Source: a virus. Taken from it: a DNA stretch of 64,000 nucleotides. The notes under the pieces were generated by a model, which worked only from the letters and a program-made list of their open reading frames with translations, searched no databases and was not told the DNA's origin. The stretch spans positions 16,763 through 80,762 of the IMG/VR virus record IMGVR_UViG_3300033182_000595; one strand, 5' to 3'. This document shows positions 3,647-62,712 of this stretch, one piece after another. Every line of letters starts with the position of its first letter. Position 1 is the stretch's first letter. The translations under genes and the position numbers were made by a program.

Positions 3647-3668
3647 GTAACACGAAAAGGTAAGTTAC
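3647..3668 (+). promoter_or_regulatory. Copy of the 22-bp GTAACAC palindromic element
   Basis: GTAACACG ... GTTAC spans 22 bases between the phosphoesterase stop and a small ORF starting at 3673. It matches the spacing of the other copies listed in this window. Probable operator or promoter-overlapping site (inference). Confidence 0.55.
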
Positions 3669-3672
3669 TTGT

Positions 3673-3798
3673 ATGCACCAACACATTATCGTGAATCATG
3701 ACATCGGACTACATTTGGTTATTTACTCTGACGAGGCCGAGGTAGACCTGGTTAGTATTCTCGATAAAGTAATCATAGAGCAACTGTGTCATGCCTAA
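3673..3798 (+). CDS. Small protein, 41 aa, unknown
   Basis: ATG at 3673 lies five bases after the palindromic element; the ORF reads MHQHIIVNHDIGLHLVIYSD onward and ends eight bases inside the next gene. No family is recognised. The balanced composition and overlap with the next start (CATGCCTAA) favour a real gene, but the length is weak evidence. Confidence 0.4.
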   Translation: MHQHIIVNHDIGLHLVIYSDEAEVDLVSILDKVIIEQLCHA

Positions 3799-4021
3799 AC
3801 CCGGATACAGAGATCCTAATGCCAATCCTAGGAGTAAAAGGCAAAGGAAGTACCAGGGAAAACCTGAGCAACGAAAGAATAGATCGTCCCGAAATAAGGC
3901 ACGAAGGAAGTTAAAAGGGTGCAAAGGTAAGGATGTGCATCATAGGGATGGAAACCCAAGGAATAATAAGCGCTCCAACTTGGTGTGTATGTCTAAGAGA
4001 AAGAACCGAAGTATAAAATGA
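3791..4021 (+). CDS. Small basic HNH-like protein
   Basis: 76 aa, very rich in Lys and Arg. The C-terminal half carries KDVHHRDGNPRNNKRSNL, which matches the HNH core pattern (HH, then D/N, then sNL) of phage homing-type nucleases. There are no zinc-binding Cys pairs, so it may be a minimal HNH nuclease or simply a nucleic-acid-binding remnant. It overlaps the start of the next gene by four bases (ATGA), so it belongs to the small operon 3673-4453. Confidence 0.6.
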   Translation: MPKPGYRDPNANPRSKRQRKYQGKPEQRKNRSSRNKARRKLKGCKGKDVHHRDGNPRNNKRSNLVCMSKRKNRSIK

Positions 4022-4227
4022 GCGTGTTCGACAAACAAGACGATGAGGCAAAGAAGAAATGCACCAATGAGTTTGTGTCTTTTTTGAAGAGGTGGGAGGC
4101 TGAGTCCGACCTAGAGAGTAACGAAATCTTAAATTGCGTATCTGATGCGATTGATGAGCTTTATGAAGAAGTGGATGAAGAGGTTGAATTTATTTCAGAG
4201 ATTGATCTCGATGGGGAAGAAGACTGA
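4018..4227 (+). CDS. Small acidic protein, 69 aa, unknown
   Basis: Starts at an ATGA overlap with the HNH-like gene. Strongly acidic in the C-terminal half (EEVDEEVEFISEIDLDGEED). No family recognised. The following gene starts inside its last 17 bases. Confidence 0.6.
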   Translation: MSVFDKQDDEAKKKCTNEFVSFLKRWEAESDLESNEILNCVSDAIDELYEEVDEEVEFISEIDLDGEED

Positions 4228-4453
4228 AGAGTATTCAATCTACTCGGAGAGATTTAAGCGTGAAGTCGATAAAGCGCATCGTGACTTTTTTGAAAGGCGT
4301 GGTATTCCACTCCATAGTCTTGATGGCGATTTTATCTTCGGAACCAAGGAGTTTAGGAGGCATCGTGCAAATAGCCTTTCGTCGTTTCCGTTCGAGAATG
4401 ACCTACCCATTTCGCAATCTTTTCAAGTGAAGAATTATAGTCCTCCTTATTAA
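4211..4453 (+). CDS. Small basic protein, 80 aa, overlapping the integrase 3' end
   Basis: Chosen ATG 4211 (MGKKTEEYSIYSERFKREV) lies within the end of the previous gene; an in-frame ATG at 4145 would overlap it much more. The first about 47 residues look like an ordinary helical phage protein; the last third runs antisense into the tyrosine recombinase that ends at 4353. Convergent overlap of about 100 bases suggests the recombinase gene arrived next to, or cut into, this gene. Confidence 0.5.
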   Translation: MGKKTEEYSIYSERFKREVDKAHRDFFERRGIPLHSLDGDFIFGTKEFRRHRANSLSSFPFENDLPISQSFQVKNYSPPY

Positions 4454-5393
4454 CACGGGAGACAAACGAGTGCCTGAATGAGTGGAAGCTTTTCCCTTCG
4501 ATCTCCATTCGGTTAAGAAATCTAGTAAAGTAAACACTGAACCTTGATCTTTTGTTTGGATCGCTGATTACCTCAGCCCACTCAGGAAAGCAATACCTTG
4601 AATCATTCTGTTCGATCTCGGTGATCGTCTTGCGAAGCAAGCCACCACCAATCAATGGATTGTCATAGGGTAGGGCGACCCTTGTGTCCGTCTTCTCTGT
4701 CCAGACATTCAAGTGATCCTCTCCCCATGAGTCCCACTCTAGCTTGCATACATCTACTGCACGCAGTCCTGTCCACCACCCAAGCGTTACGGCTTGCTTA
4801 AAGAAGTATGGAGCGTGTGCGACCATCTTCTTGTAATCTTCCTTGGTGAATGGAACTCTCTGCCTAGTCTCTTTTTGCTTGTGTGATAGTCGGCTCGCAT
4901 CCACCCGCACGCCAGCAGATGGATCGGTAAGAATGTAGCATTTTGCTACAGCAAAGTTTAGCATACTACGAATAGCGGCAAGCCTCTGATTCCTAGAGTT
5001 TAAGTTTACATCACACTTCTCATTGATGTAGTTAAAAATATGCTCTGATGTGATATCAGATAGCTTTCTGATGTTATTAAAGTTTGCGAACTTCTCCAGT
5101 ACAGTGACCTGAGTGTAGAGAGTATTGGCAGATTTGCATCTAACCATGGAATGCTCCTTCCACTCAGATATACACTCAGCTATGGTGAGATCGTCGTCGG
5201 CTAACATAAGAGTAAGGACATCACGATTTGCTTTCTTCTGCTTTATTAAAGACTCAGTAAGCTCGTACTTCTTAGCCATACTCTTGGCTTCCTTTTGGTT
5301 CTTTGTCTCTAGTGATACCGTGCGGGTCTTGCCCGACATTGTTTTAAATCTTACAGAATAAGTACCTGTCCGATCGCTCTTAATTAACTTCAT
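4353..5393 (-). CDS. int: Tyrosine recombinase/integrase (first of two)
   Basis: 346 aa. An N-terminal SAM-like DNA-binding segment (about 65-150) is followed by the catalytic domain. Catalytic residues are visible: Arg in TGLRAVDVCKL, His-x-x-Arg in FHSFRHSFVSR, His in WVGHSRTETTKGY and the nucleophilic Tyr in GYLHDAS near the C-terminus. It performs site-specific strand exchange, typically for integration, excision or resolution. All catalytic positions are intact, unlike the second recombinase at 38781. A 22-bp palindromic element lies immediately upstream of its start, and no clear Shine-Dalgarno sequence is seen. No tRNA-like att core was recognised beside it. Confidence 0.93.
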   Translation of the reverse strand: MKLIKSDRTGTYSVRFKTMSGKTRTVSLETKNQKEAKSMAKKYELTESLIKQKKANRDVLTLMLADDDLTIAECISEWKEHSMVRCKSANTLYTQVTVLEKFANFNNIRKLSDITSEHIFNYINEKCDVNLNSRNQRLAAIRSMLNFAVAKCYILTDPSAGVRVDASRLSHKQKETRQRVPFTKEDYKKMVAHAPYFFKQAVTLGWWTGLRAVDVCKLEWDSWGEDHLNVWTEKTDTRVALPYDNPLIGGGLLRKTITEIEQNDSRYCFPEWAEVISDPNKRSRFSVYFTRFLNRMEIEGKSFHSFRHSFVSRVNKEDYNSSLEKIAKWVGHSRTETTKGYLHDAS

Positions 5394-5401: not shown

Positions 5402-5423
5402 GTTACATATCTTTATGTGTTAC
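5402..5423 (-). promoter_or_regulatory. Copy of the 22-bp GTAACAC element upstream of the first integrase
   Basis: On the minus strand GTAACACATA then ATGTAAC with 22-base overall spacing, 9 bases before the integrase ATG. Same geometry as the other copies; likely control site. Confidence 0.5.
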
Positions 5424-5429: not shown

Positions 5430-6290
5430 TCAAACTAATTGTAATTGTACATCATTATGTACAACCCTGTCATGGAATCTAATTGCTGACTCTATTCTGT
5501 TTTTACTTTTCCTTGGCAGACCATCCATGCGATCCGAGAAGTCGTAAGCGAATGAGTCCGCTGAGTAGATCCTGTCCTTGATCCGTGAGTTCTTGAGTCC
5601 TGTCTGCTTGAATCCAAAGAGGTGTATCTTTGGTCTGTTCCCGCGGAAGCTCCACTCAAGTGTATCAAGTATCTCAGCTACAACCTCTGGGTTTTTATTA
5701 CGCTTACAAGTTGAGCCAATGCCCACCCATCTAGTGTCGAGTACTGTGCCCTTAGTTGAGTGCCTGTTTAAATTGCCGAACTTCATGTCGTAATCTGTAT
5801 CAAACCTTTTACTTAGTGCATTCTCATACATCTCAAGGTGTTGCTTGTAATCCTCAACCTCCCAACCCTGGAGTACTGGCATGACCGGAACACGCAGATC
5901 GTACTTGTCAGCCGCCTCAAGTATCTGCATGTATCTCTCAACTGTTTTGCGTTGGTGAATACGGACGGAAGCACGGATACCCTTGTCCTGTAGTTGCCTA
6001 ATGACATCGGGCTCGCACATATAGTCCTGTGTTACTATGCACTGCAAGTCACCACATAACTCAAAGTACTTGGCTACCAGTACATATTCCTCGGGAGACA
6101 TAATAAAGTCCCCATAGGTTGTAATCTGCGAGAACGCACCCGAGTCCATCATCCACCTACTAACAGACAAAGGATACTTCCTCTGCCTAAGCCTACCACC
6201 CTCATTCCTAACCAATGAGTTGGCAGATATCATAACATTACGCTTCCACGCATTGTTGTGTCGGTCTGTACCTACAAAGTACTCACGCAT
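5430..6290 (-). CDS. dpdA: DpdA/tRNA-guanine transglycosylase-like base-exchange enzyme
   Basis: 286 aa. Several TGT-superfamily landmarks are seen: WMMDSGAFSQ (active-site Asp plus substrate loop), VTQDYMCEPD, VPVLQGW, WVGIGSTC, IHLFGFKQTG and SADSFAYDFS, which aligns with the TGT segment carrying the nucleophilic Asp. Phage DpdA enzymes exchange guanine in DNA for a 7-deazaguanine such as preQ0, protecting phage DNA from restriction. This is shorter than tRNA TGT and has no C-terminal zinc-binding Cys cluster, as in DpdA. No folE, queC, queD or queE gene is present in the window, so it would need host preQ0 or genes outside. AAGGAGGT precedes the ATG. DpdA role is inferred; TGT fold is well supported. 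Confidence 0.72.
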   Translation of the reverse strand: MREYFVGTDRHNNAWKRNVMISANSLVRNEGGRLRQRKYPLSVSRWMMDSGAFSQITTYGDFIMSPEEYVLVAKYFELCGDLQCIVTQDYMCEPDVIRQLQDKGIRASVRIHQRKTVERYMQILEAADKYDLRVPVMPVLQGWEVEDYKQHLEMYENALSKRFDTDYDMKFGNLNRHSTKGTVLDTRWVGIGSTCKRNKNPEVVAEILDTLEWSFRGNRPKIHLFGFKQTGLKNSRIKDRIYSADSFAYDFSDRMDGLPRKSKNRIESAIRFHDRVVHNDVQLQLV

Positions 6291-7849: not shown

Positions 7850-10413
7850 AAAGTTACCTCCTCTTTGTTCGTGATAGTCAGGAAGTTCTTCTTGAGATCC
7901 TCCCACTTGCGTAACAAGTAGTCCTCGCCATCCTCTGCACCTGTGGCACTTGGATCATAGCCAGTGACATGCTGAGCAAGTAACTCATCCTCGCTCATCG
8001 TCTTGACATCACGGGGTACTCGCTTGCCGTACAGGCAGATCGTGGCGGCATCCTCCTTGTTGCCCAGCTTGTCGAACATCAACTCCTCGATGGAATTGCG
8101 ATGCAACATGACATACACATTGACATCCTCCTTGGAGGTTAGTCGATAGATACGACCAAGTGCCTGGTTGAACACACCATACGACCACTCAAGGCAACCG
8201 ATGATAAGATTCTTGCACTGCTCAAAGCTGAACGCTTGGGCACACTTGATACCCATGAGAAGCACAGGAACTTCTCCATCCTTGAACTTGGCGGCTTCCC
8301 GTGCCTTGTCCTCACGCTCACCATCAATCCTAGCGTACTTGATACCCACCTCACTCAATCGCTCAGCGATCTCGTTGGTCATACCATGACGGGCAGACAC
8401 ATGAATGATTTGTTCACCCTTGGATACATGATGGTATATCTTCTCCATACACATAAGTACCTTGGGGGTGAAGTTGGACTTGCTGTACATATTGTACTTT
8501 GAGCCGGAAGGATCACCGCAAATACCACGCAAGTATTGCATCTGCACACCATACCTGAACCTAGCATCATCCACAGGGATGTTGGCTGGATCCATGAAGT
8601 GCATGTAATTCATCCGTTGTTGCTGAGTCATTGGTACACGAATCTCGTACACATTGGACTTGGGCATATTCGGATTGCACTGAATCTTGCTGATGAATGA
8701 TACCGTTGGACGCAGTAGCTTGAGCAACTTGGCGGGCTGACTGATCGTGGGTGAAGACTTGAGATAGCTAGGACCACGACCCGTCTCCTTGTGTATCTGT
8801 TGCAAGGTATGGTCACGCTCCACGGTCATGAACTCAGTCTTGAAGTCACCGATCTCTCCAAGCTTGTAAGGCCAACGAGGGTTCAGTCTGTTGCCATGAT
8901 ACCAGTCAGGTACACACAACCAACCCATGAGAGAGAAGATGTTGAATACCATGTTAGGTATAGGAGTGGCAGACAGGGCGAACTTGTACTTGGGTTGCAA
9001 GCGTATGAAGTTACGAGTGATCTGCGAGTCAAGATTACAGATGAGATGTGCCTCATCGAGGATGACCATATCCCAGAACTTGTGACCGATCTCGGTAGCC
9101 AAACATGGTGTGTCGATACACTTGATCGCATGCTTGTCACCAGTTGGCTCACCCAGGTTGTGAGTATGAACCTCACCATCAACTATGCTGTAAGTAGCAT
9201 TGGTGGTGTCATACAGATCATAGGTGCGGGTAGTACCAAGACCGAAGTGGTAGTTGATAACATCCCGATTGCCCCACTCGTCATGTAAGGGAGGTACGCG
9301 AAACTTACGCTTCTTGAGATCCTTGCGATACAACTCCTCGGTGTCCTTCTTGGCTGAGTACCATGTGCTAGGCAACTGCTCTGTCCCACTACGGAACATC
9401 ACATGGTCATAGGTAAGGAATACACCATGAGGTAACTCACCACCATGTAGCTTGATTAAGGCATCATAGTCCTTGCGTGAGAATAGCTTGTACACAGGAA
9501 CATCTGGTGCAAACTTAGCGAACTCCGATGTCCATTGTGATGGCTTAGTGACCTCACCACCTTTGCCTTGCGAGTCCTTGACCGTACCCTTTGGGGCAAC
9601 AATCAGTACACGACCCGACATCTTGAGGATGACAAGACAGATAGCAATGAGTGTCTTACCGCATCCCGTCTCGGCTGAGATGAGAGCAGACTCGGCACAT
9701 GCTGACTGAGCGACATACTTCATCTGACCAGGGAAGAACTTGAACTCACCCGCTACCTCCATGTGTTGGAGGATCTCCATAGCCATGTTGTACTCGTCCT
9801 TGCGTTCCTCCGCTAGGGTAGGGATCACAGGCTTCTCGAAGTACTCCCATATCTTGGACTCATCAATGTCCTGGTCGATAGTAGGATGGTCACGGAAGTT
9901 TACCTTCCAACCTCTGTCGTCCGTGGTGGTAAGAGCAAAGTCCTTACCCTCAAGCGACATGTCATGTATCTTGGATGATACTTCCTTGGACTCCTCATTG
10001 AAGTGCATCTTCATCTTGGTGAAGGGCTCAATGTAACCAATGGCACGGGAAGTGAACTTGTACACCTTACCCTTGGTAAGCTGTAGGTTCTCCTCGTCCA
10101 CATCTTGGACACATGTGAGTTCACGCTTCTCATCAACATAAGCGATCTTCTCATAGTCGGTTGGCTCACGAAGGGGGCGAGCTATCCGTACTGAGGATTT
10201 AAGAGCTGCATCAATCAGCTCAGTTGCTTCTGGACTAACGAGACATGTCTTGTGGCTCATTAGCTTTTGGAGGCGTTGCCGTTCGCTTAGTGCTACCACT
10301 AGCGACATCGGTGTCCTCCCACCAACCAACTGCAAGTCTACCTTGATGTCGGATGGTGCATAGTCTGGATATGCGACGAGCTTGCCGTCACGCTCCTCTA
10401 TGTCATACTGCAT
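7846..10413 (-). CDS. SNF2/DEAH-like superfamily 2 helicase
   Basis: 855 aa. Walker A ETGCGKTLIAI at about residue 248, Walker B/motif II ILDEAH at about 450, motif III SATPIPN at about 487, then a C-terminal helicase lobe with HVSARHGMTNEIAERL and motif VI QALGRIYRL. This order matches SNF2-like ATPases that translocate on double-stranded DNA. The first about 230 residues are a phage-specific N-terminal region. It sits between the PRTRC E1-like gene cluster and RadC, with a 55-aa gene overlapping its start, so it is translationally linked to the ubiquitin-like system. Role in replication or recombination is inferred. Confidence 0.9.
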   Translation of the reverse strand: MQYDIEERDGKLVAYPDYAPSDIKVDLQLVGGRTPMSLVVALSERQRLQKLMSHKTCLVSPEATELIDAALKSSVRIARPLREPTDYEKIAYVDEKRELTCVQDVDEENLQLTKGKVYKFTSRAIGYIEPFTKMKMHFNEESKEVSSKIHDMSLEGKDFALTTTDDRGWKVNFRDHPTIDQDIDESKIWEYFEKPVIPTLAEERKDEYNMAMEILQHMEVAGEFKFFPGQMKYVAQSACAESALISAETGCGKTLIAICLVILKMSGRVLIVAPKGTVKDSQGKGGEVTKPSQWTSEFAKFAPDVPVYKLFSRKDYDALIKLHGGELPHGVFLTYDHVMFRSGTEQLPSTWYSAKKDTEELYRKDLKKRKFRVPPLHDEWGNRDVINYHFGLGTTRTYDLYDTTNATYSIVDGEVHTHNLGEPTGDKHAIKCIDTPCLATEIGHKFWDMVILDEAHLICNLDSQITRNFIRLQPKYKFALSATPIPNMVFNIFSLMGWLCVPDWYHGNRLNPRWPYKLGEIGDFKTEFMTVERDHTLQQIHKETGRGPSYLKSSPTISQPAKLLKLLRPTVSFISKIQCNPNMPKSNVYEIRVPMTQQQRMNYMHFMDPANIPVDDARFRYGVQMQYLRGICGDPSGSKYNMYSKSNFTPKVLMCMEKIYHHVSKGEQIIHVSARHGMTNEIAERLSEVGIKYARIDGEREDKAREAAKFKDGEVPVLLMGIKCAQAFSFEQCKNLIIGCLEWSYGVFNQALGRIYRLTSKEDVNVYVMLHRNSIEELMFDKLGNKEDAATICLYGKRVPRDVKTMSEDELLAQHVTGYDPSATGAEDGEDYLLRKWEDLKKNFLTITNKEEVTL

Positions 10414-10570
10414 TTATCTGTATTTCAATAATTTGTGCATCTTTTAGACCTTGAGACTTAAGGTGCCGAAGTGCCCCCTCTGCCTCTGTCTTGGTGAATG
10501 TAATTGTTTCCTGTGTGTCGGAGTTGCACAAGCAGTGCCCCATGCAGGAAACCAGGTATCTAGTTATCAT
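10403..10570 (-). CDS. Small protein, 55 aa, between E1-like gene and helicase
   Basis: Starts at an ATGA overlap with the ThiF-like gene and ends 11 bases inside the helicase gene. It reads MITRYLVSCMGHCLCNSDTQ onward and has three Cys near the N-terminus. The second half (FTKTEAEGALRHLKSQGL) resembles a compact alpha/beta fold. No family recognised. Tight coupling on both sides makes it likely to be real. Confidence 0.65.
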   Translation of the reverse strand: MITRYLVSCMGHCLCNSDTQETITFTKTEAEGALRHLKSQGLKDAQIIEIQINAV

Positions 10571-11253
10571 TTTATTTTTATTGGGTTAGTGACCCCCTTA
10601 GTGAGGTCAAAGAATACGCCCTGCACTTCTAGTTTACCCCACCTCAGCAGGGACCATACGAAGTGCAAGGCATGGTTAGCTACAACACTATTAACAAAAA
10701 GGTCTTGTCTGAAAAATTGGTCTACGCAACCGGGCGACTCCTCCTCTGTTGGTTCGTCTCCATAGATTAAATCTGAATGTTCTTCATATATGTTTGGTAG
10801 ATCTCCCTTGTATTGTCCGATCAGTACTTGACCAGATGTCTGAGCATTACCGCAGTCGATCATGTATGTGCCTTCATTCTGCCACGACTTAGCTATTGCC
10901 TCACGGGACTTGACGGTATCGACACATGATATGCATAGATCCACATTGTCTCGTGATGGTGCTTTGCGTGGTACTGCCATCCAGTTGGTGCGGTAGTACA
11001 GATTGATACGCTGACACAATGTCTTAGCCTTGTTGTGACCGACATCTGATTCATAGAATGCCTGTCTGCCTACATTGCTATATGATACGATATCGGGATC
11101 GAATGCAGTAACATGGATGGGTGTCCTGTTTAGTACATGGAGTGCATGATTGATACGGGCAAGTCCGTTGAGTACATGACTACCCGTGCCTCCGCATCCG
11201 TACACTGATATCTTGTTAATCGTCTTGGTCGTGGTGTGCCCTGATCCACTCAT
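10567..11253 (-). CDS. PRTRC system ThiF-family protein (E1-like adenylating enzyme)
   Basis: 228 aa. The N-terminal Rossmann motif VYGCGGTGSHVLNGLARI (residues about 17-34), followed by AFDPDIVSYSNVGRQAFYESDVGHNKA, is the ThiF/E1 nucleotide-binding signature with its conserved Asp and Arg. CISCVDTVKSRE and MIDCGNAQTSGQVLIG match the family's later strands. The enzyme class adenylates the C-terminal glycine of a ubiquitin-like protein. It lies directly downstream of the PRTRC B gene, in the order known for PRTRC cassettes. A strong AGGAGGT precedes the ATG although the gene overlaps the previous one by 38 bases. Confidence 0.9.
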   Translation of the reverse strand: MSGSGHTTTKTINKISVYGCGGTGSHVLNGLARINHALHVLNRTPIHVTAFDPDIVSYSNVGRQAFYESDVGHNKAKTLCQRINLYYRTNWMAVPRKAPSRDNVDLCISCVDTVKSREAIAKSWQNEGTYMIDCGNAQTSGQVLIGQYKGDLPNIYEEHSDLIYGDEPTEEESPGCVDQFFRQDLFVNSVVANHALHFVWSLLRWGKLEVQGVFFDLTKGVTNPIKIK

Positions 11254-11863
11254 GTAGTGTTACCTCCTGTTGTTTGATCTTGTTGCGTGGGGTGGGCATG
11301 TAGTTGAACTTGCTGTTGTAGAAGCAAGCCTCCCACTCCCAATGAGCCATGACATCCAATGAGAATGCAAACTCTGGGTTGGGACGATTGACTGAGCAAT
11401 GCCCCATGACCCCGCCCCGTGGATGTACATCAATCCCACGATATGGAATCTCGTATATCTTGTGGTGCAAGTTTGGTCGCTCGTCTTTACTTGTTGAGTA
11501 GATAGCAATGTTGAGCGTGTCCTGGTTATTCTTACGCTTAACCATGAAGACGATGCCCGGATGTCGATACCATCTCTGTTGCTTGCTCTTCTGTGGATCT
11601 CGCTCACTGATTGTTATCTTCCGCTTACTTGGCGGGCTGTACCAGATCATGATTCGATCTTGATCGAACCAAAGCATTCGATTGTCATAGAATGCATAGA
11701 CCTCAGCCGTACACTCAGCGGGTAGTATCTTGTTGAATGAATCCCTGTCTACTGCCCGTGGGTTACCCCATTGGTCATCCTGTTTGTCGTACAATACTGC
11801 AACGGATTTACCGTCATCATCGTACACCATTAAGCTATGCTTAGCTTCAATTAAGTTGGTCAT
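11216..11863 (-). CDS. PRTRC system protein B (predicted E2-like)
   Basis: 215 aa. The segment YRHPGIVFMVKRKN, then KDERPNLHHKIYEIPYRGID and GGVMGHCSV, matches the PRTRC B pattern: PG-hF, a RP motif, then a conserved Cys. Family work places PRTRC B in a prokaryotic E2/UBC-like group lacking the classical His; Cys in GHCSV is the obvious candidate thioester residue. It overlaps F upstream by 17 bases and the E1-like gene downstream. E2 activity is a prediction for the family and has not been shown for this protein. Confidence 0.78.
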   Translation of the reverse strand: MTNLIEAKHSLMVYDDDGKSVAVLYDKQDDQWGNPRAVDRDSFNKILPAECTAEVYAFYDNRMLWFDQDRIMIWYSPPSKRKITISERDPQKSKQQRWYRHPGIVFMVKRKNNQDTLNIAIYSTSKDERPNLHHKIYEIPYRGIDVHPRGGVMGHCSVNRPNPEFAFSLDVMAHWEWEACFYNSKFNYMPTPRNKIKQQEVTLHEWIRAHHDQDD

Positions 11864-12800
11864 GACTTAGATATTTTAATAGTTCGTGGAATGGTTTGAA
11901 GCTCCCGATCATTGCTTCTGCTGTATCCAACTCGTGGCATTCGGGCATACATGTGCAGTCGCTAAACTCCTGCACCTCTGCGATCATATGATCTAGTATG
12001 AACCACGATGGATCCGTTGATTGTCCCATGTCGCCTGGTCTCCTCCTGACCTCTTGCATCCTCCTGTCTGGGCCGATGGCGAAGTTAGTATTCTCACCAG
12101 TTATGCGTGCCATGCGTCTTGTAATCATGGGGGAGAACCCATACCAAGAGCATACCGCAAATGGCCAAGTGGCGATGTCATCATCCCATCGGTCAGGTCT
12201 TTCCATCTCGCATACATTCTCCTTACAAGCACGGAGTAACCATTGTATGCGTGAAGGCATATTTTTAGGCACATCCATATTCTCAGGAGTTATCCAATCA
12301 GGGTAGAGCTTCTCGTTCTTCTCAGGGTATTTATCGCCATAATCCTCACTGTTACCCCACCAGTAGTGCAGGTAGTGAGTGAAGTCCCTCTCGATATCTG
12401 CGGGAGTAAGTATCCAGAACGGAGCATTGTCCAACAGATACATGATAAGAGGACCGACCCCGTATTGATTGTGCAACATCTCGCACCTCGGACCGATGGC
12501 GAACTTACGCTCGCATTGGTATGTGTTGAGGATAGGGTAGTTCCCTCTCTGACCAGTTACATATTCGATCTGTAAACCGAATGCATTATTGCCCAATACT
12601 TGATGTAGTACATCAGTAAGGTATGGATCAACCGCTGGGTCTCTCTGTACCTTTCTTTGTATTGTGCCATCTATGCGAATGAACTGAGGCAGAGCGTCAG
12701 GTGTTTCTAAAAGAGGGGAGGCACGGAGCGAGGGGACAAGCTTCCGCTCCCTTTCAAACGCGAGACATTCTTCATCACTTGGAATGATAACCGAAACCAT
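11847..12800 (-). CDS. PRTRC system protein F candidate
   Basis: 317 aa. No catalytic motif is seen. It is called by synteny: it occupies the slot between proteins C and B where PRTRC F normally lies, is close to the usual length, and has the Trp/Tyr-rich middle (FTHYLHYWWGNSEDYGDKY). Start ATG 12800 is seven bases after the C gene. A search with the PRTRC F family profile would decide. Confidence 0.6.
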   Translation of the reverse strand: MVSVIIPSDEECLAFERERKLVPSLRASPLLETPDALPQFIRIDGTIQRKVQRDPAVDPYLTDVLHQVLGNNAFGLQIEYVTGQRGNYPILNTYQCERKFAIGPRCEMLHNQYGVGPLIMYLLDNAPFWILTPADIERDFTHYLHYWWGNSEDYGDKYPEKNEKLYPDWITPENMDVPKNMPSRIQWLLRACKENVCEMERPDRWDDDIATWPFAVCSWYGFSPMITRRMARITGENTNFAIGPDRRMQEVRRRPGDMGQSTDPSWFILDHMIAEVQEFSDCTCMPECHELDTAEAMIGSFKPFHELLKYLSHDQLN

Positions 12801-12806
12801 TGCTCG

Positions 12807-13061
12807 CTACCCTTTAGTTCCGTAGTTCCCTTTGAGTTCGTAGGTTGCGGATGGTCCTTTGCCTTCGAGCTTCCACTCTTCTTTTTCGTTTTGATAATAT
12901 GGTCCTCCTATCTCTCCCTTGGTAAGGGATGGGTATTGTCTACTATACAGATCCATTACTTCTTCTGGTGACATGTGTCTGCCGGGATCGGGCAGGATGC
13001 GTCCACCAAACTTGAACACTCGTTCAACTTCCTTTAATCCCTTTTGCTGTGCTTCTGACAT
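12807..13061 (-). CDS. PRTRC system protein C (ubiquitin-like protein)
   Basis: 84 aa from ATG 13061, which has AGGAG ten bases upstream; an in-frame ATG at 13112 lacks a site. The core VERVFKFGGRILPDPG, then MSPEEVMDLYSRQYPSLTKG, then a closing beta segment is the PRTRC C signature, a family assigned to the prokaryotic ubiquitin fold. The protein ends exactly in GNYGTKG, so a terminal glycine is exposed as required for adenylation by an E1. No processing peptidase would be needed. It is flanked by protein E and protein F and is the likely modifier of the cassette. Confidence 0.85.
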   Translation of the reverse strand: MSEAQQKGLKEVERVFKFGGRILPDPGRHMSPEEVMDLYSRQYPSLTKGEIGGPYYQNEKEEWKLEGKGPSATYELKGNYGTKG

Positions 13062-13188
13062 ACTTTCTTTTCTCCTGTTTTGGTCCTTGTACTCTAACTT
13101 GTAAGCCATCATAGAAGTGGTCTAAGTGACCACCCCGCTTGACTTGTAGCATTTCGTCTTTGGTTAATTGAATCAGTATTCTCTTCAT
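13024..13188 (-). CDS. Small basic protein, 54 aa, overlapping the ubiquitin-like gene start
   Basis: ATG 13188 overlaps the stop of PRTRC E as ATGA. The ORF (MKRILIQLTKDEMLQVKRGG onward, ending KGIKGS) runs 38 bases into the PRTRC C gene in another frame. No family recognised. Coupling upstream suggests it is translated; the long overlap leaves doubt. Confidence 0.45.
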   Translation of the reverse strand: MKRILIQLTKDEMLQVKRGGHLDHFYDGLQVRVQGPKQEKRKYVRSTAKGIKGS

Positions 13189-13817: not shown

Positions 13818-14094
13818 CGTCTGATATCCTTTCTATGTCTTTTTCTTCTATACTATATTCGTGCGCTAGGTACTCCTTGGCTTCCTTCATGTCCTTGAGT
13901 GCTTTCCTCATGTCCTTGAAGTAGTCCTCTATCTGTTCGGGTGAGTCTGAGCATTCGATTGCTTCGCATGTGTCCTTAAACATCTCCTTGGCATCAAGGT
14001 ATTGCTTGGCATGATCGTCTACATCTCGTCTGATATCAGCCCGTGAGGGCTCGGGTGGACTGTCCCACCCTGGTGGTTGTATTGCTAGGTTCAT
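13810..14094 (-). CDS. Unknown helical acidic protein, 94 aa
   Basis: Starts at an ATGA overlap with the gene upstream and ends inside the PRTRC E start. Mostly charged helix (FKDMRKALKDMKEAKEYL), probably coiled coil. No family recognised; may be part of the PRTRC transcription unit. Confidence 0.68.
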   Translation of the reverse strand: MNLAIQPPGWDSPPEPSRADIRRDVDDHAKQYLDAKEMFKDTCEAIECSDSPEQIEDYFKDMRKALKDMKEAKEYLAHEYSIEEKDIERISDDD

Positions 14095-17680: not shown

Positions 17681-17683
17681 AAA

Positions 17684-19223: not shown

Positions 19224-19224
19224 A

Positions 19225-19246
19225 GTCACACGAAAATTAGTGTTAC
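19225..19246 (-). promoter_or_regulatory. Copy of the 22-bp GTAACAC element at a unit boundary
   Basis: On the minus strand GTAACACTAA then CGTGTGAC, one base before the start of the gene at 19223. The TAA inside it is the stop of the upstream gene. It probably controls the series of genes from 19223 downward. Confidence 0.55.
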
Positions 19247-22347: not shown

Positions 22348-22374
22348 AGTATTAGTGGGTTAGTATGAAACAAC

Positions 22375-22399
22375 GCACCACCCAACGAGTGGGTGATGC
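22375..22399 (-). terminator. Strong hairpin between two minus-strand genes
   Basis: Arms GCATCACCCA and TGGGTGGTGC (one G-T wobble) with a five-base loop, then GTTGTTT on the minus strand. The T-run is short, so it may be an attenuator or RNA-processing site instead of a full terminator. Confidence 0.5.
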
Positions 22400-23642: not shown

Positions 23643-23668
23643 TGTAACACTACAAGCATAGTGTTACA
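23643..23668. promoter_or_regulatory. Perfect 10-bp inverted repeat TGTAACACTA
   Basis: TGTAACACTA, six bases, TAGTGTTACA. This is the most symmetrical version of the GTAACAC element, with two extra bases in the spacer. Likely a strong operator for the same DNA-binding protein. Confidence 0.6.
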
Positions 23669-23904: not shown

Positions 23905-23942
23905 TTGACATTTTGTTTTTGTAACACTAAATTTAGTGTTAT
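23905..23942 (+). promoter_or_regulatory. Promoter candidate overlapped by palindrome
   Basis: TTGACA at 23905-23910 and TAAATT at 23928-23933 are 17 bases apart. The perfect 18-bp palindrome AACACTAAATTTAGTGTT (23923-23940) covers the -10 region and abuts the ATG at 23941. A protein bound here would block initiation. Confidence 0.55.
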
Positions 23943-27155: not shown

Positions 27156-27177
27156 GTAACACGAATTAAAATGTAAC
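27156..27177 (+). promoter_or_regulatory. Copy of the 22-bp GTAACAC element before the small basic protein cluster
   Basis: GTAACACGAA then ATGTAAC, 22 bases, right after the stop at 27151. It stands at the head of the unit encoding small Lys/Cys-rich proteins. Confidence 0.5.
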
Positions 27178-31813: not shown

Positions 31814-31835
31814 GTCACACGATTTTATGTGTTAC
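31814..31835. promoter_or_regulatory. Copy of the 22-bp GTAACAC element between divergent genes
   Basis: GTCACACG then ATGTGTTAC, 22 bases. It separates the minus-strand ORF starting at 31811 from the plus-strand gene starting at 31839, so one site could control both. Confidence 0.55.
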
Positions 31836-35416: not shown

Positions 35417-36100
35417 TTATTTTTGTAAACACGAAATTAAGTGTGACCTTGCAGTCGGGCAGACATAAAGTGCTGAACACCACTTGCATTGTTTTGATCC
35501 ACTTACTCGCTTGGGGTTTTCTTTATATGCCTCCGCAACGACATCCTCTAACCACTTAGCCTTTTCCGCCAAGAATTGGGCTGAGTATTTTACCGTGGTA
35601 TAGGTAGGGTCATTAAAAGGCTCGATTAGTGCCGCATAAACATTTTCGGTCTTGGGGTAATTTTTCCAGTAAAGCACTGCTTGTGCTAGCAACTGAACAT
35701 TATCGGGTGCAGGTGTATGAGACCCGTGGAGGGTTTTATAGTCAGCGATCAGGACATCTACCCCTAATGCCTCTGAATAGTCTAACTGACCGCTCCACGA
35801 GTCGTCATACCAAAGCCTTAATTCCCGTTCTACGACTCCTTCTGAGTCACCGAAAACTTTTTTTCTACATTCTTGCAGTGCGATTCTTGATCTGTAAGCA
35901 CAAAGCCTTCTTTCATCATCATCAATTTCATCCAAGGGTACTTGGTTTTCTTCGTTTTCGTGACGAATCGTGCCTTCGTTAGCAGAGTCCTTATCGCCCT
36001 CCCACATGTAGAGCTTGTTCGCTTGCCAATGTGCTGGGCACAGGCTTGTCGCCTCCAATTTGGAGGCAGACAATTTGCCCTGTACTTTCTCAGACCGCAT
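35417..36100 (-). CDS. Cas4/RecB-like PD-(D/E)XK exonuclease
   Basis: 227 aa from ATG 36100. GKLSASKLEATSLCPAHWQA is the N-terminal helix with the first Cys; GTIRHENEE carries the family His; WSGQLDYSEALGVDVLIADYKT gives the catalytic D-(x)n-D/ExK core; VQLLAQAVLYW is the following helix; CKWCSALYVCP supplies the C-terminal Cys set of an Fe-S-type Cas4-like nuclease. It probably resects DNA ends for the annealing protein encoded just upstream. Confidence 0.82.
   Translation of the reverse strand: MRSEKVQGKLSASKLEATSLCPAHWQANKLYMWEGDKDSANEGTIRHENEENQVPLDEIDDDERRLCAYRSRIALQECRKKVFGDSEGVVERELRLWYDDSWSGQLDYSEALGVDVLIADYKTLHGSHTPAPDNVQLLAQAVLYWKNYPKTENVYAALIEPFNDPTYTTVKYSAQFLAEKAKWLEDVVAEAYKENPKRVSGSKQCKWCSALYVCPTARSHLISCLQK
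35426..35447 (-). promoter_or_regulatory. Copy of the 22-bp GTAACAC element
   Basis: On the plus strand TAAACACGAAATTAAGTGTGAC-type spacing: AACACG, AAATTA, AGTGTGAC. It lies 12 bases upstream of the start at 35414 and overlaps the 3' end of the Cas4-like gene. A weaker match than most copies. Confidence 0.4.
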
Positions 36101-37547: not shown

Positions 37548-37799
37548 TTATTGCGTTGCTTGATGAACTTCGAAAGTTTCAGTTGTCCATCGTTTCGCAT
37601 CTTTGTTCTTAGTGAGTTCAATCACCTCACCCTTATTCCACCTTGGTGTTTTCCACCCCGGTAATTGAACAGGTGTGAGGACTCCCTCTTTCTTTAAGAA
37701 TGCGAGATAACGGTAGCCTGCAGTGGCTCCCAATCCCAGTAAACGACAGACCTCTGAACCCTTCAGAAGCAGTTTATTTTCCATACTATCTTTCGACAT
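37548..37799 (-). CDS. Excisionase/AlpA-like HTH protein
   Basis: 83 aa from ATG 37799. LLLKGSEVCRLLGLGATAGY, then RYLAFLKKEGVLTPVQLPGW and TPRWNKGEVIEL, is the winged HTH of MerR/AlpA or excisionase proteins. It lies divergent from an RHH regulator across an operator-rich gap, near the integrase, so it may be the excisionase or a switch regulator. Confidence 0.7.
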   Translation of the reverse strand: MSKDSMENKLLLKGSEVCRLLGLGATAGYRYLAFLKKEGVLTPVQLPGWKTPRWNKGEVIELTKNKDAKRWTTETFEVHQATQ

Positions 37800-37980: not shown

Positions 37981-38199
37981 ATGACAACAGAACCCCTACA
38001 AGCTGTGAACTGTAGAATACCTAAAGAAGTATATAATGATATGCAGGACCTACTTAGATTCACGCAAAAATCAACAGCCGCATTCGTGAAGGACTCAATA
38101 GAGTTCTATATGGAATGTGTTAAAAAAAATAAAATCGCGGAAGATTTCAATCCATTGAAGATTGACCAGTTTGCATACAATTTGAACAAAAAAATCTAG
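37981..38199 (+). CDS. Ribbon-helix-helix regulator, 72 aa
   Basis: ATG 37981 has AAAGGA upstream. NCRIPKEVYNDMQDLLRFTQ, then KSTAAFVKDSIEFYMECVKK, is a CopG/Arc-type RHH. RHH dimers bind palindromes. It is the leading candidate for binding the AT-rich repeats next to it or the genome-wide GTAACAC sites. Confidence 0.7.
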   Translation: MTTEPLQAVNCRIPKEVYNDMQDLLRFTQKSTAAFVKDSIEFYMECVKKNKIAEDFNPLKIDQFAYNLNKKI

Positions 38200-38591: not shown

Positions 38592-38602
38592 GAGGATCAT
38601 GT

Positions 38603-38652
38603 CCTGACTACGGATCAGGAGGTTGGGAGTTCGACTCTCTCCGGGTGTGCCA
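38603..38652 (+). other. Attachment-site candidate: 3' half of tRNA-Arg (ACG)
   Basis: Anticodon arm CCTGA-CTACGGA-TCAGG (38603-38619) gives anticodon ACG. T arm GGGAG-TTCGACT-CTCTC (38625-38641), acceptor strand CGGGTGT (38642-38648), G and CCA (38650-38652). No 5' half (D arm or ACACCCG) is upstream, so this is a tRNA remnant. Such 3'-half identities are typical attP cores, and an integrase starts 130 bases downstream. Confidence 0.75.
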
Positions 38653-38780: not shown

Positions 38781-39794
38781 ATGAAGGTGTCCATATCCAA
38801 AAGAAAGGTTAGGGATAACATAAAATGGGCTTTAACTGTTCATCATGACGGAAAGCGACGAAGAAAGTTCTTCAATTCAGCCATGGAAGCCAAAGCGTTT
38901 GATGTAGTCACTTGGCTTGGTGAGGTTGCCGAAAAAGAACCTGTGGGAGAACAGACATTACTACATGTAGCAAGCAATGAGTATTTAGCTGAGTACTTCG
39001 AGAATAATTATAATCCAGCTAAGCCAAAACAGAAAGGATATCGCACAACCGAAGAGCGGGTAAATAAGTTCCTAACATGGTTTGGTGGAGGTAGATCAGT
39101 ATCGGATGTAACCGTGGAGTCCTACAAGAAGTATGTGAACTCAGGGGACTGGTCAGAGAAGACCAAAAAGGAGTACGGACGGGCTGTCCGAATATTCATG
39201 GCATGGTGTGCGAAAAAAGGTTACGGGCAAAATGTATCGGATTGGTATATTCAGACTAACCCAGATCTGAAAATGACCAAAAAAAAGGTCTTTTTTAAAT
39301 TACCAGGTATTTTGCAGGTAGCAGAAGTAAAATCTCTCTTAGAGGAAATAGACGAGAAGTATAAACCTGCCTTAGCTATTATGTTATTTACGGGGATACG
39401 CCCAGAGATGGAGATGGCTACTTTAAGATACTCAGACATCCGATGGGGTAAGTCTATAGGACTAAAGGCAGAGCATACTAAGACAGGACGGGAGCGATGG
39501 ATTAAGCCACCAGAGAACCTATGGTCATGGGTGCCAAAATCTAAAGGCTTGGTTATGCCATCTTATAACGCACTCAACTTAGCAAGAAGGTGGGCATCCC
39601 GTAGGGTGGGTTTCAACTACCCAACTAATGGTGCCAGGCATTCGTTTGGTAGCTATGGATACTGGAAGTCTTTTGAGTGGGCATTAGATACCATGGGGCA
39701 TATGTCATCCGAGACGTTTCTTAAGAACTATAAGAACAACAGGGTAGATGCGGAATCTGCGTCCGAATATTTCGGAATATGTCAAGCGGGGTAG
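38781..39794 (+). CDS. int: Tyrosine recombinase/integrase beside the att site
   Basis: 337 aa. An N-terminal core-binding region is followed by the catalytic domain: Arg in MLFTGIRPEMEMATLRY, Arg-His in TNGARHSFGSYGYW, His in TMGHMSSETFLKNY and the nucleophilic Tyr in that last segment. The usual His three residues before the second Arg is Asn here, a variation tolerated in some integrases. Position next to a tRNA-Arg core makes it the likely integrase for that site. Confidence 0.9.
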   Translation: MKVSISKRKVRDNIKWALTVHHDGKRRRKFFNSAMEAKAFDVVTWLGEVAEKEPVGEQTLLHVASNEYLAEYFENNYNPAKPKQKGYRTTEERVNKFLTWFGGGRSVSDVTVESYKKYVNSGDWSEKTKKEYGRAVRIFMAWCAKKGYGQNVSDWYIQTNPDLKMTKKKVFFKLPGILQVAEVKSLLEEIDEKYKPALAIMLFTGIRPEMEMATLRYSDIRWGKSIGLKAEHTKTGRERWIKPPENLWSWVPKSKGLVMPSYNALNLARRWASRRVGFNYPTNGARHSFGSYGYWKSFEWALDTMGHMSSETFLKNYKNNRVDAESASEYFGICQAG

Positions 39795-39815: not shown

Positions 39816-39837
39816 GATACACGAAATTTCGTGTTGC
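39816..39837. promoter_or_regulatory. Copy of the 22-bp element with perfect 14-bp palindrome
   Basis: Contains CACGAAATTTCGTG (39820-39833). Located between the integrase and the start of the late structural operon. Confidence 0.6.
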
Positions 39838-42610: not shown

Positions 42611-42632
42611 GTAACACTAAAACAAATGTAAC
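42611..42632 (+). promoter_or_regulatory. Copy of the 22-bp GTAACAC element after terL
   Basis: GTAACACTAA then AATGTAAC, 22 bases, with TTGACT ten bases to its left. It precedes the small acidic gene. Confidence 0.5.
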
Positions 42633-46929: not shown

Positions 46930-46951
46930 GTAACACGAAATTTCGTATAAC
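46930..46951 (+). promoter_or_regulatory. Copy of the 22-bp GTAACAC element before the capsid gene
   Basis: GTAACACGAA, then core ACGAAATTTCGT (46935-46946) and ATAAC, 18 bases upstream of ATG 46969. One of the most symmetrical copies. Probable control of the capsid promoter. Confidence 0.6.
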
Positions 46952-49430: not shown

Positions 49431-50862
49431 CACAGGCACATTTGCAGTAACTACAAATGAGAATTACAATACTCTTCCGTCTGTTAAAGCAAAGTCATTC
49501 CGCGTATCAAACTTTAGTGGCAAAGTTGTTGGTGTCCGCAGAAGGCATAAGTCATTACTTGTAGATGATTTTAACGATGTAGATTTCACTGAGTGGACTG
49601 GTGATATAGGTTATGAGTCTAGTGAATTGGAGGGAACTGGTGCCGCTAAAGTAACAGGAACCGCATACAGGCCATTCACTAGGCAAATTGTTGCCGATGG
49701 AGCAGAAGTTGATTTCCAGATAAGAACACCCGGGTTATCACCTTACCAAATAAAGTTCTCTGTAATTGATAAACCCGAGAGACTAGGATTAACGCCAGCT
49801 GGTTCATTAACAGTCAGTGACAATAACACTCAAAGTAACACGAAATATATTGTTACAATTAGGCTAAATCCATCTACCAATACATACGAGGCATTCCTCA
49901 AACTAGATGATGAGGTCGTGTTATCTGAGTCTGGTGATGGTGTATTTTGGTCTAACAACTACCAATTCGATAGATTATTTGCTTTCGGAAATAGTTATAC
50001 CGACTCAGGTAATTATCCAGATGAATACTGGGAAGATAAGGAGAATGTATGGGTGCAGTATTTAGCAGAGTCCTTATCCTTACCACTTACTTCCTCTGGG
50101 GTAGGGGGAACAAATTATGCGTATGGTGGAGCAAAACTAACACAGACATATACTCAAGGAGCTGAACCTTTTCTTACTATTCCATCAATAGAATCGCAAA
50201 TACAGTCAGCGCCTCTATTTTCACCAACTGACCTGGTTGCATTTTTTGGTGGAGGAAATGATTACCTTGGTGACGGTGCGGACGCTAATTACATATCTAG
50301 CGGAATCCAATCAAACCTAGAATTACTTATAAGCAAGGGGGCAAAAAATATAGTTTTACTAAATATGGTAAATCTATTGACCATGCCTGCTGTAACTGAT
50401 GCAAGCGCACAACAGATAGCACAAGATGTAAATACTCAGATTAACGATGTTATCGTCCCTGGTCTTTTGGCTAATTCAGATGTATCAATTTATACAGTAG
50501 ATTTATATACAATAGTCGATAGCATAGTCGCAGACCCCACCAGTTATGGCATAGAGGGAAATCCGTTTTATGACGATGTTCACCTAGTTGAAGAAGTTCA
50601 TAAGGTTATATCCGATAATGCCTACAGCTTACTACCTAAGTCACCACTTATTGCCATAGAAGCAGGAACAAGTGTCGTAGTTGATCCAATTATATACAAG
50701 CAAAAGGTAGACTATTCGGTTGAGCATATTGGCCATGGAGGAACATTTGTTTACCCATGCAAGAATCTATCCGAGTATGAAATAGTAAACCTTGGTAGTG
50801 ATGCCATGAATTACTCTGATAATACCCAGACAATATCAGTAAGTGGATTCTATGTCGGATGA
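49414..50862 (+). CDS. Tail protein with SGNH/GDSL esterase domain
   Basis: 482 aa. The first about 180 residues look like a beta-rich virion-binding part. The SGNH domain follows: FAFGNSYTDSGN (catalytic Ser at about 192), GVGGTNYAYGGA (block II), FFGGGNDY (block III Asn), and DDVHLVEEVH (Asp and His). Block I reads GNS in place of GDS. The C-terminal 80 residues are again beta-rich. It probably deacetylates host surface polysaccharide during adsorption. Confidence 0.85.
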   Translation: MTNLNNTGTFAVTTNENYNTLPSVKAKSFRVSNFSGKVVGVRRRHKSLLVDDFNDVDFTEWTGDIGYESSELEGTGAAKVTGTAYRPFTRQIVADGAEVDFQIRTPGLSPYQIKFSVIDKPERLGLTPAGSLTVSDNNTQSNTKYIVTIRLNPSTNTYEAFLKLDDEVVLSESGDGVFWSNNYQFDRLFAFGNSYTDSGNYPDEYWEDKENVWVQYLAESLSLPLTSSGVGGTNYAYGGAKLTQTYTQGAEPFLTIPSIESQIQSAPLFSPTDLVAFFGGGNDYLGDGADANYISSGIQSNLELLISKGAKNIVLLNMVNLLTMPAVTDASAQQIAQDVNTQINDVIVPGLLANSDVSIYTVDLYTIVDSIVADPTSYGIEGNPFYDDVHLVEEVHKVISDNAYSLLPKSPLIAIEAGTSVVVDPIIYKQKVDYSVEHIGHGGTFVYPCKNLSEYEIVNLGSDAMNYSDNTQTISVSGFYVG

Positions 50863-59698: not shown

Positions 59699-62319
59699 TG
59701 GCACGCAGAAAAGCATATAAGAATATTACTATTCACCCCGCACAAGGTGGTGCATTGATTGGGTCTGCCTCGGATGATGTACCGATTACACAGGAGTCTA
59801 ACTACTTATCTAGTTCAGCAAATTACACCACTAAGTTAAATTTCCGCAGAGAGACAGACGGAGAGTTAAGGAGAGAAGGGTGGGAGGTATTCAATCCAAG
59901 GGATGTTAATACTGAGATATCTCAATGGGGAAACAGGATTACCTTTAATGCGATAAACTCTCAGTATCCAATCCGTGCAATACATCAGTTCCCGGGCACT
60001 AACGGAACGCCAGTCCTTATTGGGATCGCTGGAGGTGAGGTATGGAGGCTACGGTCAGGCGAGGATACATATGCTCAGGATTATGCCAACTTAGACGCAA
60101 AATATGCTACTGAGAACGGAGACTTTGAGGGCAATGAATACTGGATAGGAGTAGGTGATGATTTCTATTGGGAGAAAATCTATCAGTTTGAAAGGCACAT
60201 GGATGTGTTTGATAACAATAAAACTAATCTGTCACCATTTGAGGGAGGTGCATACAGGTGGGAGATTGTGGATGTACAAAACCATATAGTTATCAATAAC
60301 GGAGTAGATCTTCCAGTCGTTTATAAGTCAGAGTGGGCTATTGCTGAGCCACTTTATTCCCTTCGAGAGAATGGAGTAATTTCCGTTGGCACAATAGGAG
60401 TATTCCAAGACCGATTATTCTGTGCAGATTTGACAGTAATCGAGAGAGGTTATGACACCTTGTTCGCGCAATCTTCCCAGCCTTACGGATATCTACCTGA
60501 AGACCCATTATATGGTTATTATAGAACGCAACGGTATCAGTATAGAATGGTGTATTCGGCAGAGGGAGAACCAAAACTATTTAATAGCGGAGCTATACTA
60601 AATAATGCCGTCGTCATGGAGTCTGGCGGATTAGCGGGAAGTCTTAATTCCTCAGAGTCGGGCGCATATTACTTTTCACCAAGGTATAATTTCAAGATAG
60701 GTACCCCAGCAAGCATGTACAAGTTGCACTCCCTAGGGACTTATCAGGGAGAAGAAGCATACACGTTAAATTTCATACAACCACCAATGGTGAAAACCGT
60801 AAATGAGGACGGAAGTCTTGAGGTTAGTGGTTTGTTTCTTGGTCAAGATATAGGTACTGCGGAAGATGTATACGCTAGAGATCCATTAAATCCAGATGAT
60901 AAGTATTCAGCTAACTTTGGCCCAGACAGGGCATACGGTACCGAGGATGATATAGATGACGGGGATTACTTCACAGCTACTGGATCCTACAAGATAGTAG
61001 ACTCTGGGGGGGATGATGTAATTCTTAACGACAATACAACAGGTCAGCCACTTAATGGAATATATACGATTGTATTACGCCCGTATGCTGAGCAACTTTC
61101 ATCTCCCGCTGCATTTCGTGAGTTCTCCCAGGATGGCTCTAGGATTCTAAAGATGAAGCAATTAGCTGATAAGCTAGTTGTCTATAGGGATTCCGGATTT
61201 TTCTTCATATCGAGAACAAATAGTACCGAGGTTCCATTTGCTATTGAGCCAAGATATACAGGGGGAAGGGTGGCAGACTTTAGGCACACAATTATAGATG
61301 TGGATGGGAATCAACATATCTTCATGGGTAATAGTGGAATCTATGCGATAAATAGAACGTCTACTGAGCCGCAACCCATATCATTGTTTGAGATTGGCCC
61401 ACCATTTTGGCAACTTGTACCGCCCGACTTAGCTGAGTTTGTATATGCGGTAGATAATCCAATCACTCGTGAGATATTTATTAACTGCCCCCTAGGATTG
61501 CTACAAAACTCCAAAGGAGATTTCATAGACGAGAAGGGAGAGATTATATACTCTGAGCGGCCCAATATAGCTTGGGGTGTAATTGCGTACGATTACATAA
61601 ATAAGACTTTATCTACCATTGATACTTCATTTACATCTGCCTCATACATCCGTAAGCCAAAACATAATCGAGTAGGCCCAGATGAGGCATGGTTTGTCAT
61701 GGGTGTACACCAAGCAAAAGATGATGAACAGATATATGTAGGTACTCAATATAGGGAAGACTCAGAGTATGGCGGCGTCATGGTAAGGTATGGATACGGA
61801 CCACCTAAGATAAATGAGAGGGAACCATACAGGCTTTACAGCCGATTGGGTTACGGCTACCGATCTAAAATAAAAAGTGGGCTCATTGACTTTGGTGATT
61901 CATTCTCCGACAAGGAAGTCCGTACATATGTATTGGAACTATCCAGCAAGTATGGTGTCACGCCCGTTCGTGTAAAAATAAGCACATCTACTTCTCCCCA
62001 AGGCACCGAGCAGATCGAGACTATGCAGACCGTGGACGGAAAGGAATTGGATTATGTTGAACTAAATAACCTAGTGGATGAGAACATGATACCAATGTAT
62101 GTTCAGGCTCCATACATAAGGGATGAGATTACGGTGTTACCAGATGTTACATATAGCGACCAGGTATTGGCTGAAATAGGATATGTTGATGACCAAGAAA
62201 AATTCTTCGATACCGAGCGTCCTGTAGTAAATAATAACCCCATTAAAATAGTTGGTAGAACATTTGAGGTCAGTGGTGTAGATACTAGGTCTGCTACTCA
62301 GGCATATAATCAAGGATGA
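59698..62319 (+). CDS. Tail nozzle/tubular protein B-like, 873 aa
   Basis: Start overlaps the fibre stop (TAATG). Beta-rich with repeated strand pairs and the segments GNRITFNAINSQYPIRAIHQ and IFMGNSGIYAINR, resembling propeller-like tail nozzle proteins of podoviruses. Contains GPDRAYGTEDDIDDGDYF, related to the third module of the fibre. Assignment is by size, order and pattern. Confidence 0.62.
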   Translation: MARRKAYKNITIHPAQGGALIGSASDDVPITQESNYLSSSANYTTKLNFRRETDGELRREGWEVFNPRDVNTEISQWGNRITFNAINSQYPIRAIHQFPGTNGTPVLIGIAGGEVWRLRSGEDTYAQDYANLDAKYATENGDFEGNEYWIGVGDDFYWEKIYQFERHMDVFDNNKTNLSPFEGGAYRWEIVDVQNHIVINNGVDLPVVYKSEWAIAEPLYSLRENGVISVGTIGVFQDRLFCADLTVIERGYDTLFAQSSQPYGYLPEDPLYGYYRTQRYQYRMVYSAEGEPKLFNSGAILNNAVVMESGGLAGSLNSSESGAYYFSPRYNFKIGTPASMYKLHSLGTYQGEEAYTLNFIQPPMVKTVNEDGSLEVSGLFLGQDIGTAEDVYARDPLNPDDKYSANFGPDRAYGTEDDIDDGDYFTATGSYKIVDSGGDDVILNDNTTGQPLNGIYTIVLRPYAEQLSSPAAFREFSQDGSRILKMKQLADKLVVYRDSGFFFISRTNSTEVPFAIEPRYTGGRVADFRHTIIDVDGNQHIFMGNSGIYAINRTSTEPQPISLFEIGPPFWQLVPPDLAEFVYAVDNPITREIFINCPLGLLQNSKGDFIDEKGEIIYSERPNIAWGVIAYDYINKTLSTIDTSFTSASYIRKPKHNRVGPDEAWFVMGVHQAKDDEQIYVGTQYREDSEYGGVMVRYGYGPPKINEREPYRLYSRLGYGYRSKIKSGLIDFGDSFSDKEVRTYVLELSSKYGVTPVRVKISTSTSPQGTEQIETMQTVDGKELDYVELNNLVDENMIPMYVQAPYIRDEITVLPDVTYSDQVLAEIGYVDDQEKFFDTERPVVNNNPIKIVGRTFEVSGVDTRSATQAYNQG

Positions 62320-62678
62320 ATCCAGTAGTAAGAGGTTTTGATCGTAATGTGGAAGCGCAGTTTCCCGAGGAAGAAGCTGTCCCTCAGAATCTGCGCGAAT
62401 GGTGGATGGAAACAAAATCCAATCTTGAACGATTAAGGGATCGCACGCGTCTGCTAGAGCAAGAAGTAGAATCACTAAAAACTAAGATATCAACCTTAGA
62501 GAATAATACAGTGAGTAGTACCTCTCAATTTACAGATGCACAAGCAGAGCAGTTAGCTAGATTTATACAATATTGGGAGATAACGACAAGCGGAGGTTTG
62601 GTACCATACACGCACAATGCATCAGATATTGGTAGTGCAGAGCGTAAGGTAAAGGACATATATGAGCATGATGCTTAG
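62316..62678 (+). CDS. Coiled-coil fibre/adaptor protein, 120 aa
   Basis: ATGA overlap. Long coiled coil (NLERLRDRTRLLEQEVESLK), then a C-terminal ASDIGSAERKVKDIYEHDA, a peptide common at the ends of phage fibre proteins. Confidence 0.7.
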   Translation: MNPVVRGFDRNVEAQFPEEEAVPQNLREWWMETKSNLERLRDRTRLLEQEVESLKTKISTLENNTVSSTSQFTDAQAEQLARFIQYWEITTSGGLVPYTHNASDIGSAERKVKDIYEHDA

Positions 62679-62690
62679 ACTTGAAAGATT

Positions 62691-62712
62691 GTAACACGAA
62701 GATTATTGTAAC
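62691..62712 (+). promoter_or_regulatory. Copy of the 22-bp GTAACAC element in the fibre cluster
   Basis: GTAACACGAA then TTGTAAC, 22 bases, three bases before ATG 62716. TTGAAA at 62681 and TATTGT at 62704 are 17 bases apart and could be a promoter. Confidence 0.5.

Follow-up and report, generated by a model that had tools for sequence, protein, structure and literature searches.

A dispersed 22-bp palindrome at gene starts marks a probable repressor regulon in a phage without close cultured relatives

The window analysed here, a stretch of 64,000 nucleotides (16763-80762 of a viral contig 80,762 bases long), carries a 22-bp palindrome again and again, usually directly in front of a gene, which raises the question of what acts on these sites and to what effect. 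The repeat consensus, taken from the window and the contig, is GTAACAC(G/T)A-N4-T(C/A)GTGTTAC, in a 7+8+7 layout. Read in gene direction, the left half is better conserved than the right; the central bases vary among copies, and the hairpin is lost in many of them. The copies in the window, putative operators apart from the one inside a gene, are the following.

3647..3668, plus strand: palindrome with the ATG of a conserved 41-aa gene (3673) 4 nt downstream
5402..5423, minus strand: palindrome with the ATG of tyrosine integrase 1 (int1) 8 nt downstream
19225..19246, minus strand: palindrome with the ATG of a 70-aa gene 1 nt downstream
23921..23942, plus strand: palindrome overlapping the ATG, as in G002 and G003
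27156..27177, plus strand: palindrome followed 1 nt downstream by a 73-aa gene in G003 and G005
31814..31835, no single strand: palindrome common to a divergent 66-aa gene (plus strand, ATG 3 nt downstream) and an HNH gene (31444-31725, minus strand)
35426..35447, minus strand: palindrome with the 35019 gene's ATG 11 nt downstream, within the recombination/replication operon
39816..39837, plus strand: palindrome with the 39869 gene's ATG 31 nt downstream, at the head of the terminase operon
42611..42632, plus strand: palindrome directly behind the terminase stop codon, with the following ATG 4 nt downstream
46930..46951, plus strand: palindrome with the ATG of the presumed major capsid gene (46969-48843) 17 nt downstream
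49835..49856, plus strand: intragenic palindrome, within a GDSL-lipase-like gene (49414-50862)
62691..62712, plus strand: palindrome with the 62716 gene's ATG 3 nt downstream

A weight matrix, the kind of motif model that the earlier note had proposed scanning over the contig and its relatives, finds 13 sites in the contig, 12 of them in the window and the thirteenth beyond it at contig position 2367, compared with 0-1 in Markov shuffles; relatives also carry the motif. A pattern search allowing up to three mismatches gives 24 strand-hits at 13 places, where 1.5 +/- 1.5 are expected and none of 100 shuffles gives as many. One of those places, 53268, is probably a chance match. A scan of viral contigs with the exact palindrome returned no match. 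The copies at 5402, 19225 and 35426 belong to minus-strand genes, and the one at 31814 separates a divergent gene pair. Unlike in G003 and G005, the 73-aa ORF downstream of the 27156 palindrome was not found in the window. The copy at 49835 is intragenic, as the earlier note had it, and is kept in the same GDSL-lipase-like gene of several relatives, again within the gene.

The 22-bp element is present at every coordinate given in the earlier note except 23643, which had been taken for a longer perfect form. There the half-sites span 24 bp, not 22, the score falls below threshold, and the structure is hairpin-like. It is a different element, outside the 22-bp set.

23643..23668, plus strand: separate element with a 10-bp stem and a 6-nt loop

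Over 23643-23685, a hairpin TGTAACACTA-N6-TAGTGTTACA is followed by a C8-AA-G7 hairpin. A very similar arrangement occurs in G003, and G007 has a C/G stem beside a clade-C half-site (14625).

Most copies had been described as lying a few bases upstream of a first gene. This holds, and can be narrowed to 0-8 nt before the ATG in most cases; the capsid and 39869 sites deviate, at 17-31 nt. Of 115 sites in nine genomes, 66 end directly ahead of an ORF (ATG-started, at least 38 codons), compared with 15-19% of random positions. Among 54 non-redundant palindrome-preceded starts, an SD core occurs at two, versus 170 of 537 control starts (p = 2e-6), a deficit partly forced by the palindrome's occupying that stretch. 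TTG at -36..-34 precedes 24 of the same 54 starts versus 25 of the 537 controls (p = 7e-15), and about half of the palindrome-preceded starts are without a clear TTG at -35.

With the A of the ATG taken as +1, the TTG stands at the canonical -35 place, and the canonical -10 place falls inside the palindrome. Examples include TTGCCA at 3637-3642, upstream of the 3647 palindrome; TTGACA 4 nt upstream of the 5402 palindrome; TTGACA at 23905-23910, with a candidate -10, TAAATT, within the 23921 palindrome; TTGACT overlapping the terminase stop at the 42611 site; and TTGAAA at 62681-62686, with TATTGT as candidate -10, at the 62691 site. The 31814 palindrome is flanked on both sides by TTG elements, an arrangement that is the same in G002-G005. 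A -35/-10 pair can be fitted in 18 hand-picked sites, usually with 17 bp spacing and 6-7 nt to the ATG, but the -10 hexamers are weak and were picked by best fit, so this geometry is partly fitted. The TTG-to-palindrome distance in these 18 sites varies from 9 to 20, and the palindrome therefore looks laid over a fixed promoter core.

Protein searches found no close cultured relative: terminase matches reach at most 28% identity, and the capsid and portal gave no match. Eighty related contigs were gathered via the terminase gene. Five relatives with terminase identity of 79-98% carry 8-18 palindrome copies each, and the orthologous genes that bear palindromes in relatives include int1, the post-terminase gene, the presumed capsid gene and the 39869 gene, among others; the 3647 palindrome has orthologous sites in G001, G002, G005 and G007. 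More distant relatives have other palindromes at the same genes, GTTACTA..TAGTAAC (22 bp) in one clade and TGACCTA..TAGGTCA (20 bp) in another. A dyad search finds TTACT-N10-AGTAA in G007/G008 and TGACC-N10-GGTCA in G011/G014. For G007, G011 and G014, models of these clade-specific dyads recover 13, 12 and 15 sites respectively, and shuffled sequence gives 0-1. These counts are partly circular because the matrices were trained on the same genomes; the positions are the independent evidence. At int1, the post-terminase gene, the capsid gene and a 154-aa gene, among others, clades C and D each show a palindrome of their own. At the terminase junction, an element follows the stop codon in many contigs, with clade-specific sequences, and in every clade examined int1 is preceded by a palindrome of the clade's own type (G001, G002, G005, G007, G011 and G014). 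In the outgroup G010 (class E), no palindromes occur at the expected genes, the AlpA-like, RHH-like and int2 genes are absent, and the int1-like gene is without the N-terminal arm domain; this joint absence of palindrome and lysogeny module comes from a single lineage.

The earlier note had named lack of conservation in relatives as one of the findings that would count against its proposal of a regulon over early and late genes. The same or clade-specific palindromes are found at orthologous genes, and copy number, placement, orthologous conservation and lineage-wise motif divergence together give good support to a single regulon that takes in the integrase, other early genes and structural genes. 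We conclude that the regulon is real.

The integrases and the switch region comprise five features.

4353..5393, minus strand: int1, tyrosine recombinase of 346 aa (Pfam PF00589, E=1e-13)
37548..37799, minus strand: AlpA/Xis-like winged-helix protein (PHROG 66, E=2e-4), first gene of the early left operon
37981..38199, plus strand: RHH-like small protein, divergent from the AlpA-like gene and conserved in clades A-D
38602..38652, plus strand: probable attP core, a tRNA-Arg 3' half just upstream of int2, the same in G005
38781..39794, plus strand: int2, tyrosine integrase (PHROG 1, E=2e-20)

Two integrases are thus encoded, with a tRNA-Arg attP-like core beside int2, and because the probable attP adjoins int2 the phage is probably temperate. 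A search for int1 relatives returned one contig, already known. The predicted structure of the AlpA-like protein resembles MerR/Xis folds, with Foldseek probability up to 0.99 and a best E of only 0.03. A homologue of the RHH-like protein gives a weak RHH_1 match (E=0.025), and a fold search with the RHH-like protein itself gave no match. The intergenic region between the two genes (37859-37981) holds direct repeats, TGAAGTRAAA, of about 10 bp, and each relative has different repeats there.

Judged from sequence, a single master switch very likely binds the palindrome, and that switch is probably a repressor. The full reading, which we hold with somewhat better than even confidence, is that the palindromes are operators of one dimeric repressor, most likely phage-encoded, on leaderless sigma-70-type promoters. 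One dimer-acting protein would bind all the palindromes, covering the spacer and -10 of putative host sigma-70-type promoters, at which transcription would start at the ATG or a few bases before it to give leaderless mRNAs. While bound, the protein would keep RNA polymerase off the integrase, early and structural genes alike and so silence the prophage; with the protein lost, all operator-bearing genes would open. No palindrome was found at the early AlpA operon promoter or in the AlpA-RHH intergenic region, which would be odd for a sole lysogeny repressor.

The palindromes might instead be sites of a MerR-like phage activator, placed between -35 and -10 and turning on weak promoters in lytic growth. 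The weak -10 hexamers and the position of the palindrome in the spacer and -10 would suit this, as would an early operon that begins with the AlpA-like gene, whose product is modelled as resembling MerR/Xis folds. We nevertheless consider it unlikely: the fitted spacing is mostly 17 bp rather than the 19-20 bp of MerR promoters, the palindrome shifts relative to the -35 by as much as roughly one helical turn, and the AlpA-like recognition helix does not follow motif class. Neither a palindrome in a 19-20-bp spacer nor a recognition helix covarying with the site, as a MerR/AlpA-type activator would have, was found.

A protein that sets the specificity of these sites is expected to be alike in classes A and B and different in C and D, and none of the DNA-binding candidates checked for covariation with motif class fits clearly. 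The AlpA-like, RHH and winged-helix proteins suggested as binders in the earlier note fit poorly by sequence comparison. The class-D contigs L073 and L080 share the class-A helix (TAGYRYL) of the AlpA-like protein, and the class-A contigs L023 and L057 carry class-C-like helices. Putative contact residues of the RHH-like protein vary within class A and do not follow motif class, and its own intergenic region has phage-specific direct repeats and lacks the palindrome. The winged-helix gene 32423 has no BLAST match in G002 and G005, which bear the motif. Two further candidates were rejected: the helix of the 42824 HTH-like protein is shortened in class-B phages, whose motif is nevertheless the same, and the putative helix of 40053 varies within class A.

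That no phage protein was matched to the motif speaks for a host transcription factor as the binder, coupling the phage to host state, and motif differences among clades could mirror different hosts. This is just as improbable as the activator, since the motif follows phage lineage and is absent from the outgroup without a lysogeny module. A host search placed only two contigs of the family, L131 and L132, in a MAG, labelled uncultured archaeon; both are probably misbinned.

The sites invite a further proposal, that int1, a tyrosine recombinase whose catalytic residues are intact and which every palindrome-bearing genome covering the region retains, doubles as a genome-wide repressor on 22-bp core-type sites at leaderless promoters, controlling itself and having clade-specific site specificities. 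We regard this as quite unlikely. A repressor with a tyrosine-recombinase fold and dispersed sites is known in MrpR of SPbeta (see below), but int1, unlike MrpR, keeps its catalytic residues, and the proposal is no more than a lead. When int1 is compared with motif class, the class-B protein shows no greater likeness to class A than the class-C protein does, a result that speaks neither for nor against int1 as the binder.

The palindrome could itself be the promoter of a phage-encoded RNA polymerase, a form of the phage-specific promoter type that the earlier note had offered as an alternative. Its constant length, gene-start position and lineage-specific sequence would agree with this, as would the better conservation of its left half in gene direction. 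The -35 TTG outside the palindrome and the variable phase of the palindrome to it disfavour such a promoter, the hairpin is lost in many copies, and among the ORFs searched, a giant 3771-aa ORF considered as a virion RNA polymerase gave no Pfam or PDB match. We consider this reading very unlikely. That the palindromes are non-regulatory recombination core sites of int1, as the 7+8+7 layout and the retention of an intact int1 might suggest, is the least credible reading of all, given their fixed place before start codons at orthologous core genes, the central bases that differ among copies, and the deletion of essential genes that recombination between repeated direct sites would cause.

Other features of the phage were observed along the way. 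The 3771-aa ORF (contig 8172-19487, with its 3' part at window positions 1-2725) lies at the end of the structural genes and has a possible HEAMH metal-binding motif. A Pistol self-cleaving ribozyme at 22369-22443 on the minus strand scores 45.9 bits (E=3e-5), above the Rfam gathering score, and was not found in the scanned parts of the relatives G002, G003 and G005. A tgt/DpdA-like gene lies at 5430-6290 and a 2OG-Fe(II) oxygenase at 30498-31277. A ThiF-like gene and its neighbours occupy 10567-13112 on the minus strand, a group that may resemble a PRTRC cluster.

The operators of a single repressor on leaderless sigma-70-type promoters, if that preferred reading is right, provide a readable gene-control map for a phage family that has no close cultured relative in protein searches. 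From clade to clade the network changes the sequence that is recognized but keeps its positions. The prediction is that many structural genes, together with the integrase, are under direct repression at leaderless promoters instead of being driven by a late activator or antiterminator.

Control through dispersed operators is already known from P1 C1, L5 and SPbeta, and the present regulon appears comparable in logic: many copies of one site occur above chance, and they stand at presumed promoters and heads of transcription units. In phage P1, operators of one repressor, C1, are likewise dispersed over many genes, but these are asymmetric 17-mers rather than palindromes, and the sequences are unrelated. 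Stoperators of the cluster A mycobacteriophages L5/Bxb1 are many genome-wide sites whose consensus differs by sub-lineage and tracks the repressor; they are asymmetric, follow the direction of transcription and for the most part are not associated with promoters (PMC6550527). The phage described here shares the many sites and the lineage-varying consensus, whereas its palindromes sit on presumed promoters at start codons and do not show the asymmetric, transcription-oriented, mostly non-promoter pattern of L5-type stoperators. CvkR, a MerR-type repressor of CRISPR-associated transposons from a paper that also treats leaderless starts (PMC9938897), differs in not governing a phage regulon of dispersed copies. 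In SPbeta, SPBRE, a 15-bp element repeated over the prophage genome, is bound by MrpR, the master repressor of lytic genes, which has a tyrosine-recombinase fold with its catalytic residues lost (PMC10516654). The present element is a 22-bp palindrome, and int1, in contrast to MrpR, keeps the catalytic R, K, HxxR, H and Y. The likeness to SPbeta is that one conserved element is dispersed over the genome, and that int1, a second recombinase, sits in the phage's regulon.
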